The notes under the pieces were generated by a model. It was given only the letters and a program-made list of their open reading frames with translations. It was not told the origin of the DNA and searched no databases. The position numbers were made by a program, and so were the translations under genes. From Bacteroidota bacterium (GTDB lineage: Bacteria > Bacteroidota > Bacteroidia > Flavobacteriales > Flavobacteriaceae), in the NCBI GenBank assembly GCA_029561105.1, contig JAKQJQ010000117.1:1-41662 (forward strand): 41,662 nt of DNA, written 5' to 3'. Below, piece after piece: positions 23,390 to 31,030 of the stretch. Positions within the stretch are counted from its first letter, which is position 1. Each line of letters starts with the position of its first letter.

Positions 23390-24169
23390 ATGCGATCGAT
23401 TTGGACAGGCGCCATCAGCTTCGGGCTGATCAACATTCCTATAAAACTGTATTCGGCGGTCCAGGAGAGTACGCTCGATTTGGATATGCTCGACAGCAAA
23501 GACCTTTCGCATATCAAGTTCCAGCGCATCAACGAAAAGACGGGAAAAGAAGTCAAATTTGCCGATATTGTAAAAGGCTATCAGGTAGATGACAAGTACA
23601 TCGTGCTCGAGGAAGCCGATTTTGAAGCCGCCGATGCCGAGAAAACCAAACTCATCGAAATCGTGAATTTTGTCGCCGAAAAAGAAATCGACAGCATTTA
23701 CTACGAACAACCTTATTATGTTGAACCCGATAAAAGTGGTACCAAAGCCTACGCCTTGCTGCGCGATGCCTTACAGAAATCAGAAAAGGTAGGCGTTACG
23801 ACCTTTGTATTGCGCAACAAGGAGTCGCTTGCTATCCTGAAACCTTATGGCAATGTAATCGTGCTCAACCGCATCCGCTTTGCGCAGGAAATCCGCGACA
23901 CCTCAGACCTGAAGTTACCCGCCGTTGCCAAAACCAAAAGCAAGGAAATAGACATGGCCAATAAGCTTGTGGAACAGCTTACCGAAAAATTCGACATCTC
24001 TGATTTCAAGGACACTTACACCGAGAAACTAATGAAAATCATCAAGGCCAAAGCCAAAGGAAAAAATCCGGTCCCGGCAAAAATGAAGGTCGTGCACAAA
24101 CAAAGCGACGATTTGATGAGCATGCTCAAAGCGAGTCTTGAGAACAAAAAAGTCAAAAAGTCGTCGTAA
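23390..24169 (+). CDS. ku: Non-homologous end joining protein Ku
   Basis: 259 residues, normal for bacterial Ku. It opens with the family signature [20 protein letters not shown] and continues through the Ku core beta-barrel ([21 protein letters not shown]). The short basic C-terminal tail ([14 protein letters not shown]...NKKVKKSS) is like those that contact DNA and LigD. Bacterial Ku forms a homodimeric ring on double-strand ends and recruits LigD. The frame extends 12 codons upstream to 23354, but ATG 23390 matches the conserved start. It converges with an SGNH hydrolase, beyond which ligD lies. Confidence 0.96.
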
Positions 24170-24173
24170 TCAT

Positions 24174-24854
24174 TTATTTGCGCTTCAAAGCCTGTGCAAT
24201 CCCTTTGAGTAGCAATGGTTTCATTACACTATACCCGTCCAGGTTAGGATGCACGCCGTCTTCGGCATACCCTTCTTTCATCCCGTTGCGCGCGTCCTTC
24301 ATAGCCGAATGGTAATCAATGTAAGTAATTTTGTTTTTGGCCGCATAGCGTTTCAGCATAGCGTTGAGCTTAACGATTTTCTCTGCCGGCGCTACCTCGG
24401 GCCGCCATTTGAAATCGTAAGCCGGCAAGACAGAACACAACACTACCCTGATTTTATTGGATTTGGCGAGTTGCACCATAGACACAATATGCCCAAAAGT
24501 ATCCTCGAGCGCTAACGGCCCATCGTTTAACGCAATGTCGTTGGTCCCGCCCATAATCACCACGAGCTTGGGGCGCAAATCGATGACATCTTCCCTGAAT
24601 CGCAGCAGCATCTGAGCGGTGGTTTGCCCGCTGATGCCACGATTGATGTAGCTCCCGGTAAACAATTTGCCGTCGATGACTTTCCACAATTCTGTAATCG
24701 AATCGCCCATCAATACGATCCGGCGGGCGTCTGGTGTAGTTTGCAGCAAGGCATTTTCGGATGCGTATTTCCCGACAGGTTTTGAATCGGTGTCACCGGG
24801 TTGGGCGTAGGCCGAGCAAATGCCACACAGCAAAAAGAGGAGGATTTTTTTCAT
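24174..24854 (-). CDS. SGNH/GDSL-type esterase, secreted
   Basis: 226 residues with a signal peptide (MKKILLFLLCGICSAYAQ). The four SGNH blocks are all visible: Ser52 in MGDSITELW, Gly in NRGISGQT, Asn105 in GGTND and the Asp199/His202 pair in EDGVHP. These enzymes remove acyl or acetyl groups from lipids or polysaccharides in the periplasm; the substrate here is unknown. It starts only 12 bp after the ligD stop on the same strand and is probably cotranscribed with ligD, though a link to DNA repair is not expected. Confidence 0.92.
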   Translation of the reverse strand: MKKILLFLLCGICSAYAQPGDTDSKPVGKYASENALLQTTPDARRIVLMGDSITELWKVIDGKLFTGSYINRGISGQTTAQMLLRFREDVIDLRPKLVVIMGGTNDIALNDGPLALEDTFGHIVSMVQLAKSNKIRVVLCSVLPAYDFKWRPEVAPAEKIVKLNAMLKRYAAKNKITYIDYHSAMKDARNGMKEGYAEDGVHPNLDGYSVMKPLLLKGIAQALKRK

Positions 24855-24866
24855 CGAATAAAAGTA

Positions 24867-27398
24867 TTATTCTTTTTGGTTAGATTCCATGCGTTTGATG
24901 ATTTTGAGGATGTTGGCGCCTTTACCCAAAACCGGCTTCCACAAATCGCCTTTCTTTTCAAGCCTTTCGAGTATGTTGTGAATGGTAAACTGCGAAGGTG
25001 AAAGCTGGTTATTCACTTCATCCCATTCTAGCGGTGTTGAAACCGTAGCGCCGTTCTTAGGCCTTACCGAGTAAGGTGCTGCCAACGTCTGTCCTGCACG
25101 GTTTTGCAAAAAGTCGATGTAAATCTTGCCGTTTCTTTTCTTTATGGTGCGCTCGGTGGTTGTGATTTGGGGCAAACGCGACTGGACTTCGTGCGCAATG
25201 AGCTCGGCGAAAATCTTTACCGTATAATAGTTGTATTTGGCCTGCAGCGGAATATAAACATGCAAGCCGGTCGCACCAGATGTCTTGCAATAGCAATCGG
25301 TTTCGAGTTCGTCCATAACGGCCTTGACGGTAAGCGCGGCTTCAACGACGGCTTCGAAATCATTTTCCTTTCCGGGATCGATGTCAATGACCACCCAATC
25401 GGGATGTTCGGGCTTTTTGATGGTTGAATTCCACGGATTGATCTCGATACAGCCCAAATTCGCCATATACAGCAGCGTGGCCTTGTCGTTGCAAATCAGG
25501 TAATCGATGTCGGCGTCGTTCGATTTAGAGTAGACCGATTGCGTCTTGAGCCACGACGGCACTTTCTCTATGTCGATATCCTTTTGGTAAAAACTCGGGC
25601 CGTTGATGCCATTGGGGAAACGGTTCATAGACTGCGGACGGTTTTTGAGATACGGCAAGATGTAATCGGCAACTGCAGCGTAATATTGTACAATATCACC
25701 TTTGGTGAAACCGTCTTTGGGGAAATACACCTTATTCGGATTGGTCAAATGCAGGGCGATTTTCCCGACCTTTAAATCGTAGTCATCTTCAACTTGTCGT
25801 TTCATGGTTTTGGATTTTGGTTGATTGGTTGGCTGCGGGCGTTTTACTTCGGAAGCTTTCTTGTCTACACGAAGCCCCATAAATACCGGATGTCGCAAGC
25901 TGCCTTCGCGCGTCCATTCGGTGAATTTGACCTGACAGACGAGTTGCGGTTTGACCCAATGTATTTTGGCCGGAGCAGTAACTTTTTCTTCGATTGGCGA
26001 TTTTGCGACATCGAGTTTTTGAAATTGGGCGTGCAATTCCTTGAGCGCAGTATCATTGAATCCGCTGCCGCAGTTACCAATGTATTCGATCGTATCGCCC
26101 CTGTATTGTCCCAGCAGCAACGATCCGAAATAGCTACGCGCGCCTTTGGGTTCAGTGTAACCAATGATGATCGCTTCCTCGCTTTGGATACTTTTAATTT
26201 TAAGCCATTCGCCACTGCGTTTGCCCACGCGATACGGGCTATTGGCGTCTTTGGCGATGATGCCTTCGAGTTTGTGTTTTTCTGCCTCTTCAAAAAAAGC
26301 AATGCCTTTGGCGGCGATGTGTTCTGAATAGTAGATGCTGTCGAACTGGTATTTTGAAAGCAACAGCCACAGCAATTCCTTGCGTTCTAAAAGTGGCAAC
26401 TGTGTCGTGTCGTGGCCGTCGAGCTGCAGGATGTCAAAAACATAATATTGGAGTTGGCCTTTACCTGTTTTCCAGAAACTTTGCAACGACTGGAAATCAC
26501 TTTTCCCGTCAGATTCCACCACCACTTCCCCATCAATTACGGCATTGTGCCCGATTTTTTTTAGCGCGTCGGCTATGGATTTAAAATTTTTATTGAACGA
26601 CAATTCATTGCGGCTGAAAAGGTTCGCTACACCATCCTCAATCACCGCAATTGTGCGGTAGCCGTCGTATTTCGTTTCGTACACCCAATTTTCATTGTCG
26701 AATGGTGCGTCTGCAACGGCTGCCAGCATGGGCGCGATAAATTTGGGTTTGGCCAGCTTTTGGGTTTTATCTTTTGCTATTTGCTTTTTTGCGTGATTTT
26801 TTACAGACGCCTGTTGCTGGTCTTGTTTCTTCTCAAGGCTTTCTATGGTCATGCCCGAAAGAACCGATTTATTTTGTTGAAGTACATCTGTTTTAGAGGC
26901 GTGTTTGTCATCTTTTTTGAGCAGCAGCCATGCATTTTCCTGCTTGCTGTTCCTGATCTTGACCAGCGCAAATTCGCCCTTGAGCTTTTTGCCTTTGAGG
27001 ATAAAACTCAGGTGGCCTTTGTGCAGACCGGCGCGCAAAGCTTTTTCTTTATCTGCCAAATCTTTAACTGTTGAAGTATAGGTTCCTCGGTCCCAAACGA
27101 TGACGTTGCCGGCACCATAATTGCCCTCGGGGATATTGCCTTCAAAATCCTTGTAATCGTAAGGATGATCTTCAACCATCATCGCCAGGCGTTTGTCGTC
27201 GGGATTGAGCGACGGGCCTTTGGGAACCGCCCAACTCACCAATACGCCGCCCAGTTCCAGCCTGAAGTCATAATGCAGGTGCGATGCGGCGTGTTTTTGA
27301 ACAACAAACATCAACTCCTTTTCAGATTTCCTGATTTTCGCTTGGGGCTCGGAGGTTTGCGTGAAATTGCGCTTTTGCTTATATTTTTCTAGTGCCAT
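24867..27398 (-). CDS. ligD: Multifunctional DNA ligase D (NHEJ)
   Basis: 843 residues in the order phosphoesterase, ligase, polymerase. The 3'-phosphoesterase domain (about 20-170) has HAASHLHYDFRLELGGVLVSW and the DHPYDYKDFEG motif. The ATP-dependent ligase (about 220-520) has its adenylated Lys243 in YETKYDGYR and continues through the OB fold. The archaeo-eukaryotic primase-like polymerase domain (about 560-840) has VVIDIDPG and SGATGLHVYIP. LigD trims, fills and seals broken ends held by Ku. The first residues are strongly basic (KYKQKRNFTQ). The Lys/Gln-rich linker around 175-215 separates the first two domains. The SGNH gene follows closely. Confidence 0.97.
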   Translation of the reverse strand: MALEKYKQKRNFTQTSEPQAKIRKSEKELMFVVQKHAASHLHYDFRLELGGVLVSWAVPKGPSLNPDDKRLAMMVEDHPYDYKDFEGNIPEGNYGAGNVIVWDRGTYTSTVKDLADKEKALRAGLHKGHLSFILKGKKLKGEFALVKIRNSKQENAWLLLKKDDKHASKTDVLQQNKSVLSGMTIESLEKKQDQQQASVKNHAKKQIAKDKTQKLAKPKFIAPMLAAVADAPFDNENWVYETKYDGYRTIAVIEDGVANLFSRNELSFNKNFKSIADALKKIGHNAVIDGEVVVESDGKSDFQSLQSFWKTGKGQLQYYVFDILQLDGHDTTQLPLLERKELLWLLLSKYQFDSIYYSEHIAAKGIAFFEEAEKHKLEGIIAKDANSPYRVGKRSGEWLKIKSIQSEEAIIIGYTEPKGARSYFGSLLLGQYRGDTIEYIGNCGSGFNDTALKELHAQFQKLDVAKSPIEEKVTAPAKIHWVKPQLVCQVKFTEWTREGSLRHPVFMGLRVDKKASEVKRPQPTNQPKSKTMKRQVEDDYDLKVGKIALHLTNPNKVYFPKDGFTKGDIVQYYAAVADYILPYLKNRPQSMNRFPNGINGPSFYQKDIDIEKVPSWLKTQSVYSKSNDADIDYLICNDKATLLYMANLGCIEINPWNSTIKKPEHPDWVVIDIDPGKENDFEAVVEAALTVKAVMDELETDCYCKTSGATGLHVYIPLQAKYNYYTVKIFAELIAHEVQSRLPQITTTERTIKKRNGKIYIDFLQNRAGQTLAAPYSVRPKNGATVSTPLEWDEVNNQLSPSQFTIHNILERLEKKGDLWKPVLGKGANILKIIKRMESNQKE

Positions 27399-27757
27399 GA
27401 CAGGTGAATTGGGAGTTAAATTTCCTGTAAATCCAGGTTAAATGTGTTACGCAATTCAGTCAATTGGTTTTAATATTTGACACAATCATATTGCCCTCCC
27501 CACTTCTAATATTTAACAACAAATGCAGAATAACTACATTTCGGTTTTCGGGCGTTTTGTTAAGGGATACATTTGCCCCTTCCCTGAAGGTAAAATACAA
27601 TTTTTTCCAATAACGGTTCTACATAAAATCTATAGGTATTGTTAACGAAAAAATCAACATTACAGCGTTGTCAAAATGTGTCTTTTTTAACTTCTGTTGA
27701 ACAGGAAAATTCGGCGACCGTTTTGTAAATTTACCGCACTTCAAAAAGCAAGCCCCC
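27399..27757. other. Divergent promoter region between ligD and the radical SAM gene
   Basis: 359 bp without a recognisable gene. On the plus strand TACATTTG (27568-27575) matches the -7 box exactly, with a T-run 19 bp upstream. A second near match, TAAATTTA (27726-27733), lies 24 bp before the ATG at 27758. If the first is used, the mRNA leader would be about 180 nt. No strong hairpin, riboswitch or tRNA was seen. The ligD promoter on the minus strand is not clear. Confidence 0.4.
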
Positions 27758-29014
27758 ATGTCTGAAAGAATTCGAGAGAAGCTGCAAATCCTTGCCGATG
27801 CTGCTAAATATGACGTTTCCTGTTCCTCAAGCGGCAGCAACAGAAAGAACAATTCTAAAGGTTTGGGCGATGCCAGTTCATCGGGTATTTGCCATACCTA
27901 CACAGAGGATGGCCGCTGTGTATCGCTGCTCAAGATCCTGCTCACCAACCATTGTATTTTTGACTGCGCTTTCTGTGTGTCGCGCAAAAGCAACGACGTG
28001 AAGCGTGCCGCATTTACCGTTGAGGAAGTCGTAGAACTAACGATGAGTTTCTACCGTCGCAATTACATTGAAGGCTTGTTCCTGAGTTCAGGTATTTTCA
28101 AGAATGCCGATTATACGATGGAACGCCTCGTGCGCATTGCCAAGAAGCTGCGGCTCGAGAACAATTTCAACGGCTACATACACCTCAAGACGATTCCCGG
28201 TGCGAGCCAGGAGTTACTTACCGAAGCGGGTTTGTATGCCGACCGCATGAGCATCAATCTTGAAATGCCCACAGAAGCCGGACTTAAATTGCTTGCGCCC
28301 GACAAATCGCATGAGGATGTGAAGCAACCGTTGTCGTTTATACAGAAAAGCATCGTTGCGTTGAAAGATGAAAAGAAAATCATCAAACACGTCCCGAAAT
28401 TCGTCCCGGCAGGGCAAAGCACGCAGATGGTGATTGGCGCCACACCCGAAACCGATATGGAGATCATGTACAGTGCCAACGAATATTATAAAAACTACGA
28501 CCTCAAACGCGTCTACTATTCGGGGTATATCCCGATCAGTTATGACGACCGCATGCCCATTATAGGCAGCCAGCCGCCGCTATTGCGCGAAAACCGTTTG
28601 TACCAGACCGACTGGCTCATGCGCTTTTATGGCTTTGAGGTACACGAAATCCTGAATGACAGCAATCCGCATCTGGATGTAGACATTGACCCGAAATTGA
28701 GTTGGGCGCTGCGCAATATGGACCTGTTCCCGATTGATATCAACACGGCCGATTACCGCATGATATTGCGGGTTCCCGGAATTGGCGTAGGATCGGCCAA
28801 GAAGATTGTGATGGCGCGCAAGTTTGGTCGTTTGCGCTCGGAGCAATTGCAAAAGATTGGTATTGCGTACAACCGCGCCAAACATTTTATTCGTTGTGCC
28901 GACAGTGTGCTGCAGCTCAACACACCCGACGCCTTGCAGGTTAAACATACGATTTTGTCTGACAGCCAGAGCAAATACCTTAAGGTGCCGTTGAACCAAT
29001 TGAGTTTATTTTGA
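27758..29014 (+). CDS. Putative DNA modification/repair radical SAM protein (TIGR03916 family)
   Basis: 418 residues. The 4Fe-4S cluster motif is CIFDCAFC (Cys66, Cys70, Cys73; CX3CX2C), which cleaves S-adenosylmethionine to a radical. A TIM-barrel core follows (GLFLSSGIFK, YIHLKTIPGAS, SINLEMPTE). Near the C-terminus a helix-hairpin-helix (RVPGIGVGSAKKIVMAR) suggests DNA contact, and the end (KVPLNQLSLF) resembles a short interaction tail. The family model describes a putative DNA repair/modification enzyme always paired with a DUF4130/TIGR03915 protein, here the next gene. The exact reaction is not known to me. It lies beside ligD and ku, strengthening a DNA repair role. Confidence 0.9.
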   Translation: MSERIREKLQILADAAKYDVSCSSSGSNRKNNSKGLGDASSSGICHTYTEDGRCVSLLKILLTNHCIFDCAFCVSRKSNDVKRAAFTVEEVVELTMSFYRRNYIEGLFLSSGIFKNADYTMERLVRIAKKLRLENNFNGYIHLKTIPGASQELLTEAGLYADRMSINLEMPTEAGLKLLAPDKSHEDVKQPLSFIQKSIVALKDEKKIIKHVPKFVPAGQSTQMVIGATPETDMEIMYSANEYYKNYDLKRVYYSGYIPISYDDRMPIIGSQPPLLRENRLYQTDWLMRFYGFEVHEILNDSNPHLDVDIDPKLSWALRNMDLFPIDINTADYRMILRVPGIGVGSAKKIVMARKFGRLRSEQLQKIGIAYNRAKHFIRCADSVLQLNTPDALQVKHTILSDSQSKYLKVPLNQLSLF

Positions 29015-29033
29015 GTTGGATGTTGTTTTGCGC

Positions 29034-29160
29034 GAAGGATGGCAGCGGTATCCTTTTGCGGAGTTTACGAAGCAAAAGATTTAGCGGACAGCCTGACGGC
29101 ACAAAGTGTTGATGGATAACAGAATGTTGATTGCCGGCGCGCCCAAAAAACAGCAACAAG
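29034..29160. repeat. Flavobacterial interspersed repeat-like segment
   Basis: The stretch GGATGGCAGCGGTATCC...TTTAGCGGACAGCC, with an inner inverted repeat ATCCTTTTGC (about 29051-29060) and GCAAAAGAT (about 29073-29081), followed by a GCCGGCGCGCCC run, matches my memory of a sequence repeated many times between genes in Flavobacteriia. No coding potential is seen. It separates the radical SAM gene from its usual partner gene. Confidence 0.5.
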
Positions 29161-29206
29161 GTTCAGGCTACAAGGTACGAGCCAGTTGAGAACTTGCACC
29201 CCGAAA

Positions 29207-29248
29207 CCTGTACCCTGTACCCTGTACCCTGTACCCTGAACCCTAAAC
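29207..29248. repeat. Heptamer tandem repeat, six units
   Basis: CCTGTAC is repeated four times perfectly (29207-29234), then as CCTGAAC and CCTAAAC. The array ends 10 bp before the ATG at 29259, so it occupies the leader or translation-initiation region. GGTTCAGG at 29160-29167 is complementary to CCTGAACC at 29235-29242, allowing a long hairpin that would include the array. Confidence 0.85.
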
Positions 29249-29258
29249 CTCATCCCTA

Positions 29259-30026
29259 ATGACCACTTATATTTTCGACGGCTCCCTTGAAGGCCTGCTC
29301 ACCGCAATTTTTGAATTTTACGAACGCAAGTCTGGAACAATCAAGCTTGTCGCTGCGGCAGATTATGAGCCGCAATTGTTGGGAGAAACCCTTGAAATTA
29401 CGAGTGACGAGGTTAAATCGAAACGCGTTTGGGATGGTCTTAAAAAGAAACTATCACCCGATTGGCTATTGCGGTTTTACAAGGCGTACTTATCAGAGGA
29501 TCCCGAAACATTCCAGCAGTTGTTTGAATTTGCGTGTTATATTTTTGACCATGAAAAGGGCGCCGAACAGAACTTTGGGCACAAGGCGGTTTTGGCGGTG
29601 ACGCAGATGGACCGCAGCGTGAACCGCGAGAAACACAGGATGAAAGCGTTCATCAGGTTTCAGGAAACGGCTGATGGGATTTTTTACGCGGGTATTGAAC
29701 CCGATTTCAATGTATTACCGTTGGTCTCGAATTTCTTTAAGAACCGATATGCCGACCAGCGCTGGATTATCTACGACCTCAAACGCAAATACGGCTTGTA
29801 TTATGATTTGGAAACGGTGACCGAAATCCAATTGGATTATGCGCCCGAGATGAAATCTACCACGCCGTTGTTGCCCGAAAACGCTTTGCAGGACAAAGAA
29901 GGATTGTATGCTTTGCTGTGGAATGATTATTTCAAAAGCACGAACATTCCAGCGCGCAAGAACATGAAACTGCACATCAGGCACGTTCCCAAACGCTATT
30001 GGAAATTCCTGACAGAGAAGCAGTGA
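29259..30026 (+). CDS. DUF4130 domain protein, partner of the radical SAM enzyme (TIGR03915 family)
   Basis: 255 residues. The start TTYIFDGSLEGLLTAIFEFYE is the family opening, and the remainder includes NREKHRMKAFIRFQE, IEPDFNVLPLVSNFFKNRYADQRW and the C-terminal LHIRHVPKRYWKFLTEK. The DUF4130 domain occurs alone, as here, or fused to a uracil-DNA glycosylase-like domain in other bacteria, which points to base excision or repair. It is normally encoded next to the TIGR03916 radical SAM protein. In this window the pair is split by 244 bp holding a repeat element and a heptamer array, so coexpression may be altered. A strong terminator follows. Confidence 0.9.
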   Translation: MTTYIFDGSLEGLLTAIFEFYERKSGTIKLVAAADYEPQLLGETLEITSDEVKSKRVWDGLKKKLSPDWLLRFYKAYLSEDPETFQQLFEFACYIFDHEKGAEQNFGHKAVLAVTQMDRSVNREKHRMKAFIRFQETADGIFYAGIEPDFNVLPLVSNFFKNRYADQRWIIYDLKRKYGLYYDLETVTEIQLDYAPEMKSTTPLLPENALQDKEGLYALLWNDYFKSTNIPARKNMKLHIRHVPKRYWKFLTEKQ

Positions 30027-30493: not shown

Positions 30494-31030
30494 TTAAGGG
30501 TTAATTTTTCCTTCTATTGAATCGTCGAAAGTCTCACCAACCACCGCGCCGTACGCGCGTTTAATCATACCCACAGCCATACCGTTTTTGGTGTCCCAAT
30601 AGTAGCCTTCATTGGGAGATACTTTAATGACGGTAATCCTTGGATCATCTTCGCCCTGGGTGAACCAATTTTTCATGGTTGGATCCCAAAGTTCTTTGAT
30701 GCGTTGCTTGTCGGTGGAGATTTCGGCGGTGCCGTAAAGGGTCATGAAATCGCTATAAGACGAACCCTGAAACAGCAACTGTACCTTGTTGTCGACTTGG
30801 ATTTCTTTATTTTTGTGGCTGTCGGAAGCGCTTAAGAACCACAGGTTGCCTTCGTCGTCTATTTCTTCTGCTGCCATTGGGCGCGTCGCGAACGGTTTGC
30901 CGGTTTGTATGGCCGTGCAGAAAAAGAACGATCCTGATTTTTTGGCGAGTTCTTTTATTTTTTCGATGGCTTCCGGGCCATAAACATCTTTAAGGTTTTC
31001 TTCTTTTTGATTTTTGTTGATACTGTCCAT
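30494..31030 (-). CDS. Pyridoxamine 5'-phosphate oxidase-fold general stress protein
   Basis: 178 residues. The split beta-barrel flavin-binding fold (Pyrid_ox_like, PF16242) is suggested by FFFCTAIQTGKPFATRPMAA, NLWFLSASDSHKNKEI, VQLLFQGSSYSDFMTLYG and the late WDP and GYYWDTKNGMAVG segments. Such GSP26-like proteins bind FMN or F420-type cofactors and are induced by stress, but a specific reaction is not known. A near -7 box (TAATTTTA, 31067-31060) lies 30 bp before the ATG. The gene is first in an operon with the secreted low-complexity protein. Confidence 0.9.
   Translation of the reverse strand: MDSINKNQKEENLKDVYGPEAIEKIKELAKKSGSFFFCTAIQTGKPFATRPMAAEEIDDEGNLWFLSASDSHKNKEIQVDNKVQLLFQGSSYSDFMTLYGTAEISTDKQRIKELWDPTMKNWFTQGEDDPRITVIKVSPNEGYYWDTKNGMAVGMIKRAYGAVVGETFDDSIEGKINP

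Follow-up and report, generated by a model that had tools for sequence, protein, structure and literature searches.

What does it mean when two sets of DNA repair genes lie side by side in a bacterial genome: do they form one working unit, or has local history merely placed them together? The question is raised by a stretch of 41,662 nucleotides from a member of the Flavobacteriaceae (Bacteroidota bacterium, GenBank assembly GCA_029561105.1, contig JAKQJQ010000117.1), which is referred to below as the window and which makes up one contig of a 3.7-Mb, 416-contig draft. In it, the genes for Ku and LigD lie next to those for a radical S-adenosylmethionine (SAM) protein of family TIGR03916 (hereafter rSAM) and its partner of family TIGR03915/DUF4130. 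We estimate, at a probability of roughly 0.6, that these are two separate neighbouring modules: Ku and LigD, serving non-homologous end joining (NHEJ), and rSAM with its partner, forming a clamp-tethered DNA-lesion module. The features concerned are the following.

23390..24169, + strand: ku, encoding the bacterial NHEJ DNA-end-binding protein (TIGR02772, 299.5 bits against a cut-off of 150, E 2e-89; PF02735, E 2.5e-48).
24174..24854, - strand: gene for an SGNH/GDSL hydrolase, counted in neither repair module (PF13472, E 1.3e-30).
24867..27398, - strand: ligD, in the order phosphoesterase-ligase-primase-polymerase (PF13298, PF01068/PF04679 and PF21686; TIGR02777, TIGR02779 and TIGR02778 above cut-off).
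27399..27757, no strand: intergenic region from which ligD and the rSAM gene diverge, with a promoter-like element, TTAACTTCTGTT, beginning 71 bp before the rSAM start; relatives in which rSAM is not near ligD have an element of this form as well.
27758..29014, + strand: rSAM gene (TIGR03916, 678.8 bits against a cut-off of 343.5, positions 1-415 of 415; PF04055; helix-hairpin-helix (HHH) domain PF12836).
28997..29011, + strand: codons for QLSLF, the last five residues of rSAM, a predicted DnaN (beta clamp) binding motif (sequence and motif survey).
29259..30026, + strand: TIGR03915/DUF4130 partner gene (TIGR03915, 275.8 bits against a cut-off of 112.25; PF13566, 175.6 bits against a cut-off of 27).

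The evidence that sets the rSAM module apart lies at the C-terminus of rSAM, where in the window a variable stretch is followed by QLSLF as the last five residues. This tail was surveyed in 134 homologues, all distinct in sequence (one further locus, L144, was left out since its frame is not closed), with 1009 other open reading frames (ORFs) from the same or neighbouring loci serving as a control. Within the last 15 residues, the strict form QLxLF occurs in 100 of the 134 homologues and in a single control ORF, which is itself the rSAM gene of a genome of the same genus (G334). For a loose pentapeptide the numbers are 116 homologues against 2 control ORFs, and for a penta- or hexapeptide 129 against 8. 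The rSAM copies of three alpha-/betaproteobacterial plasmids end in QLSLF, QLSLL and QLSLI. According to the accessible part of a 2025 paper, clamp-binding motifs most often read QL[S/D]LF, or QxxLF in a more general form, and the C-terminus of Bacillus subtilis PolC is QLSLF (PMC12309361). The tail of rSAM, a conserved QL[S/D]LF or QxxLF at a terminus, has the form by which beta-clamp clients are recognized, and it shares the same pentapeptide at the extreme C-terminus with PolC and other QLSLF clients, although rSAM is not a polymerase and its binding to the clamp is a prediction. These data strongly suggest that TIGR03916 is a client of the sliding clamp (DnaN), the ring by which the replication machinery is kept on DNA, and a clamp-binding tail would class it with the DNA enzymes, apart from the many radical SAM proteins that do not act on DNA. 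No paper joining a clamp-binding motif with a radical SAM protein was found in the open literature searched.

The remainder of the protein agrees with its initial annotation, in which a CX3CX2C cluster motif and an HHH had been noted: the former corresponds to C66-X3-C70-X2-C73 and the latter to PF12836 at residues 326-364 (27.4 bits against a cut-off of 27). C66, C70 and C73 are invariant both in an alignment of 34 homologues and in a wider set of 13. C22, C45, H46 and C54 are likewise invariant in the 34 homologues and at least 90% conserved in the wider set, one member of which is a fragment; judging by this conservation they could hold an auxiliary cluster. Spore photoproduct lyase (SplB) is a radical SAM enzyme acting on DNA, and rSAM differs from it by the additional N-terminal cysteines and the HHH domain. 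No SplB-type model was among the NCBIfam and Pfam matches of rSAM at E 0.001, in libraries not checked for holding a spore photoproduct lyase model. The closest named matches of the window's rSAM are from Flavobacterium (84-86% identity).

The partner gene is a near-constant companion of rSAM. In 122 of 126 loci it was found next to it, on the same strand and no more than 3 kb away, with a median gap of 27 bp as judged from tblastn ends, and no partner match was obtained at the distant locus of a Gemmatirosa plasmid (L061). The spacer of 244 bp in the window is unusual for the genus: of 29 other genus loci, 26 have a gap of at most 28 bp. Inside the window's spacer (29207-29244), the 7-bp unit CCTGTAC is repeated in tandem, in 5.4 copies. 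The two families are known to NCBIfam as a putative DNA modification/repair pair, and the accessible part of PMC3765255 describes an SOS-linked gene network that contains DUF4130 along with radical SAM and uracil-DNA glycosylase (UDG) genes. The window proteins score above both cut-offs, in the same order and on the same strand; relative to what that part of the source offers, the predicted clamp tail, the apparent DHH-like fold of the partner and the co-occurrence with Ku are additions made here, and the long spacer is a peculiarity of the window.

That the partner family is elsewhere fused to a UDG domain, as initially supposed, was confirmed in all three proteobacterial plasmid loci scanned (Azospirillum, Rhizobium and Caballeronia), each of which carries the UdgX motifs GEQPG, KRRIH or KRRLH, and HPS. 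UdgX, as described in the accessible part of PMC10359453, removes uracil, becomes covalently attached to the apurinic/apyrimidinic (AP) site left behind, and has these same motifs. These alpha- and betaproteobacterial loci have the same rSAM family (50-52% identity), the same adjacency and the DUF4130 part at the N-terminus of the fusion, whereas the partner in the window has no UDG domain in a family scan and does not qualify as a UdgX. In the open literature searched, no paper joining UdgX with a radical SAM protein and none naming TIGR03915 was found.

An AlphaFold2 model of the partner (predicted local distance difference test, pLDDT, 87) resembles the DHH/DHHA1 phosphoesterases, such as PAP phosphatase, RecJ and Cdc45. 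Its best Foldseek match is PAP phosphatase 8a8k (E 9e-4), and PAP phosphatase is also the best match in VIA (Z 8.8, root-mean-square deviation 5.7, 199 residues aligned), with RecJ at 7.9 and replisome chains at 7.1. Rows 1-43 of the VIA matches consist of PAP phosphatase, RecJ, RecJ-Cdc45, Cdc45, family II pyrophosphatase, DhhP, PggH, an S1P-family protein's DHH domain, and chains named as replisome or 'DNA replication protein', which are presumably Cdc45 or archaeal RecJ. Sequence profiles were searched for the same relationship: no DHH family was present among 25 of the 32 Pfam families listed for 39 partner-family members, hhalign of the partner against 8 RecJ and 10 NrnA-like sequences gave a probability of 0.1 at most, and a profile search of the PDB with the partner reached a best E of 0.027, its matches being S100 proteins and a single designed protein. 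Homology between TIGR03915 and DHH proteins at the level of sequence was therefore rejected, as none of the three profile searches found it. Since a VIA Z in or near this range can mean a mere common arrangement and the profiles give no support, the DHH resemblance is taken as a lead.

The gene-content association of rSAM and Ku is real in both the genus and the class. With rSAM, Ku and the phosphoesterase domain of LigD as queries, we searched 150 genomes of the same genus; 122 entered the trait tables, after the exclusion of 28 that were less than 90% complete, more than 5% contaminated or without a full gyrB, and 121 entered the likelihood tests, with G300 dropped for its long branch. Both genes are present in 30 of the 122 genomes, rSAM alone in 11, Ku alone in 2 and neither in 79, so that the rSAM module is nearly always retained in those genomes of the genus that have NHEJ. 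Within genome-size strata, 30 genomes with both were observed and 16.7 expected. A quick gyrB tree provided 13 independent pairs differing in rSAM, among which Ku differs on average in the same way in 6.5, in the opposite way in 0.2 and not at all in 6.3 (median P 0.03). When a dependent-rates model of evolution was compared with an independent-rates one, the likelihood ratio (LR) was 61.8 for rSAM and Ku. Ku paired with the LigD phosphoesterase, which served as positive control, reached 85.5, and rSAM paired with that domain 44.9. The comparator genes KatG (112 of 150 genomes above cut-off) and AlkB (143 of 150) are too common to be ideal, for which reason an AlkB copy number of at least two was used in place of plain presence; its LR is 26.8 with Ku and 30.3 with rSAM. 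Genome size gave 15.5 and 13.2, and KatG 15.1 and 9.7, respectively, and as KatG reaches such values with no plain correlation (phi -0.04 with Ku, -0.08 with rSAM), an LR of 10-15 was taken as the noise level.

In the class outside the genus, where 197 genomes of the class were searched, the numbers with both, rSAM only, Ku only and neither were 8, 6, 10 and 168 (Fisher P 2e-6, uncorrected for kinship). The association is not strict: rSAM is missing in 11 of 22 class genomes with Ku, and Ku is missing in 24 of 49 named genomes with rSAM. Among 14 control genomes, rSAM scored above cut-off in Caulobacter and Bacteroides and Ku in Bacillus, and none had both. Stand-alone proteins of the LigD phosphoesterase domain (frames of about 170-240 amino acids) were observed in eight genus genomes that lack Ku (G203, G213, G257, G264, G307, G333, G336 and G339).

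The physical neighbourhood is a different matter. In the window, gene calls and family scans placed all five genes as initially annotated and upheld the end-joining pair, with both genes present and all three LigD domains (phosphoesterase, ligase and polymerase) above cut-off; the set is that of ordinary bacterial NHEJ except that the SGNH hydrolase gene stands between the convergent ku and ligD, on the ligD strand and 12 bp behind that gene. The ligD and rSAM genes diverge over 359 bp. Linkage, defined as rSAM lying within 10 kb of Ku, was followed in the genus and class samples and in a third one of 49 named rSAM-bearing genomes, derived from 80 named loci (L117 and 30 others were left out); the three samples may overlap. 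Both genes were above cut-off in 30 of the 150 genus genomes and linked in 3 of these 30, namely the window, G334 and G204. The distance is 18 kb in G260 and 90 kb in G062, exceeds 1.5 Mb in five single-contig genomes (G303, G330, G238, G324 and G267), and the genes are on different contigs in 20 of the 30. Outside the genus, none of the 8 class genomes with both is linked (3 have them on one contig, the nearest 189 kb apart, and 5 on different contigs), and of the 25 named genomes with Ku among the 49 only one is linked, that of Sphingobacterium alkalisoli (L069). Because many of the assemblies are drafts with the genes on different contigs, some of them near contig ends, a small number of linked cases may have been missed. 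On these counts a conserved ku-ligD-rSAM operon was rejected.

The linked cases also differ among themselves. G334 and the window have a collinear block of 25 kb (4379 to 30026 in the window, one gene being rearranged), ClpB included, and are therefore counted as one case. In G204, rSAM, its partner, a SpoIIAA-like gene and Ku are on one strand, followed by a convergent LigD, and the genome has a second Ku-LigD locus with no rSAM; in S. alkalisoli, LigD and Ku are convergent and rSAM is divergent from Ku. Random placement expects 0.295 linked genomes among the 63 with both genes in the three samples, and 4 were seen, in 3 arrangements (P 0.003); when the window's lineage is removed, 2 were seen (P about 0.036). 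The proposal that the pair lies near ku/ligD more often than by chance therefore survives in a weak form, the excess of linkage being mild at most, and we consider the neighbourhood real but mostly a product of lineage and local history rather than a conserved operon. As further observations on these loci, a PPOX gene is found between LigD and rSAM in G334 (L145, 9828-10358), 65% identical to one located beyond the partner in the window (30494-31030); distant ligase-like matches, 27-28% identical to LigD, occur less than 10 kb from rSAM in 2 of the 80 named loci (L071, 7381-8271, Sphingobacterium; L128, 5715-6551, Chryseobacterium); and the genus loci L145-L164 contain two kinds of NHEJ locus, one with convergent Ku and LigD (Ku 71-78% identical to that of the window) and one with codirectional Ku-LigD (Ku 47-56%).

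A shared regulation of the two modules was looked for in the upstream regions. The element TTAAC-N4-GTT is present in 19 of 136 rSAM upstreams (1.2 expected from mononucleotide shuffling), or in 12 once loci fetched twice are removed, and TAnnTTTG in 96 of the 136 (18.2 expected). The former also occurs in 10 of 386 upstreams of other ORFs and so may be part of an ordinary promoter; some of the rSAM genes that have it, e.g. those of G267 and G272, are not near ligD. It was found in none of 12 Ku and none of 14 LigD upstreams, and a scan for sigma-70 promoters gave 11 sites against 10.7 expected. A shared divergent promoter was rejected for want of evidence, the only promoter-like element tested not being common to Ku and LigD upstreams. 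The suggestion that the repair modules are linked is thus weak as regards neighbourhood, which is rarely kept, finds no backing in the tested promoter element, and is supported by gene content, where co-occurrence survives the tree and size controls and exceeds that of the comparators.

Four other explanations need to be weighed against that of two separate modules. The strongest, to which we give a little less than even odds, is that of shared lifestyle only, i.e., both modules are accessory repair genes of larger-genome, environmentally exposed Flavobacteriia, gained and lost together with no interaction between them. Both do track genome size and the second AlkB paralogue, but the LR of rSAM and Ku is more than twice those values and the association holds inside size strata; moreover, this explanation concerns co-occurrence and is compatible with a clamp-tethered enzyme. 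Functional coupling, by which removal of base damage by rSAM and joining by Ku/LigD would constitute one pathway (e.g., bases near breaks being cleaned before LigD seals them) and selection would favour their being neighbours, seems unlikely to us. It would account for a co-occurrence that is strong beyond genome size and comparator genes, for Ku being found without rSAM in just 2 of 32 genus genomes and for three different linked arrangements, and the accessible part of PMC4770248 ties a 5'-deoxyribose phosphate lyase activity of LigD to base excision repair. Against it speak the linkage counts (to the extent that draft contigs allow it to be seen, the genes are not within 10 kb of each other in 27 of 30, 8 of 8 and 24 of 25 of the genomes having both), the failure to find a shared promoter element, the many genomes of the class, named and control sets in which one gene stands without the other, and a clamp motif that points to replication and not to breaks.

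The remaining two explanations concern the nature of the genes themselves. The rSAM pair, which is widespread (rSAM itself was found in 158 plasmid records and in at least 589 genome stretches), could install a DNA modification or serve phage defence rather than the repair of lesions; the NCBI name, 'DNA modification/repair', would allow this, and we know of no established chemistry for the pair. PADLOC, however, assigned no family to Ku, LigD, rSAM or the partner, only 2 loci were found in a scan of a viral collection, and the fusion is to UdgX, a binder of uracil-DNA, all of which makes modification or defence highly improbable. Least probable of the four is a mobile repair island in which ku, ligD and the rSAM pair were acquired as a unit: G204 has one of its two ku-ligD loci, and only that one, beside the rSAM pair, yet the window cluster is embedded in the block shared with G334, and a scan of 10 proteins encoded nearby at L146 and L069 revealed no integrase or transposase. 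With regard to distribution, the two viral-collection contigs (L143, L144) encode rSAM relatives, and Acinetobacter, Psychrobacter and Moraxella records (L056, L073, L078, L119, L120, L122 and L126) contain Bacteroidota-like rSAM of 60-69% identity, which suggests transfer between phyla or, for metagenome-assembled genomes, misbinning.

A number of points weigh against the reading of two separate modules, one of them clamp-tethered. Support for co-occurrence from independent pairs is modest, and the likelihood test is liberal, as the KatG-Ku value demonstrates, with one fitted rate at its bound and a single-gene tree made quickly. The motif is missing from the last 15 residues in five of the 134 rSAM homologues, of which two have QLSLF or QLSLW further in. 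The predicted model of rSAM is poor (pLDDT 68, with residues 19-79 below 50) and supports a general fold at most, the structure matches listed for it being radical SAM proteins of several kinds. The clamp binding, structure and activity of rSAM are predictions, and the DHH resemblance of the partner is a structural lead. Finally, three different linked arrangements, somewhat more than chance would give, leave room for coupling.

Under the explanation that we prefer, that of two separate modules, rSAM would, like PolC, use its C-terminal QLSLF to bind DnaN, which the near-universal conservation of the motif suggests, and its HHH domain would touch the DNA. The [4Fe-4S]/SAM site would make a 5'-deoxyadenosyl radical that attacks a modified DNA base or sugar, and the three further conserved cysteines and the histidine may hold an auxiliary cluster. 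The partner, with its DHH-like fold but no recognizable DHH sequence, may bind or present the lesion, and because of the UdgX fusion in some proteobacteria the substrate is probably a base lesion on clamp-loaded DNA. The link with NHEJ would then consist in complementary coverage of damage in the same kinds of genomes and not in a shared machine. A bolder version, which we regard as a long shot, is that TIGR03916 travels with the clamp and edits or repairs bases just behind the fork; that TIGR03915 is a catalytically dead, RecJ/Cdc45-like DNA holder, with proteobacterial UdgX capping failures as a covalent AP-site adduct; and that cells with Ku/LigD depend on the pair to clear the products of NHEJ, e.g., damaged bases or ribonucleotides that the LigD polymerase has inserted.

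In conclusion, the survey indicates that the location of the rSAM pair beside ku and ligD is mostly a matter of local history, while their shared gene content is not. The predicted clamp-binding tail is the most useful new fact, since it would tell where and with what the enzyme works, and its near-universal presence therefore turns the question of the substrate into a testable one.

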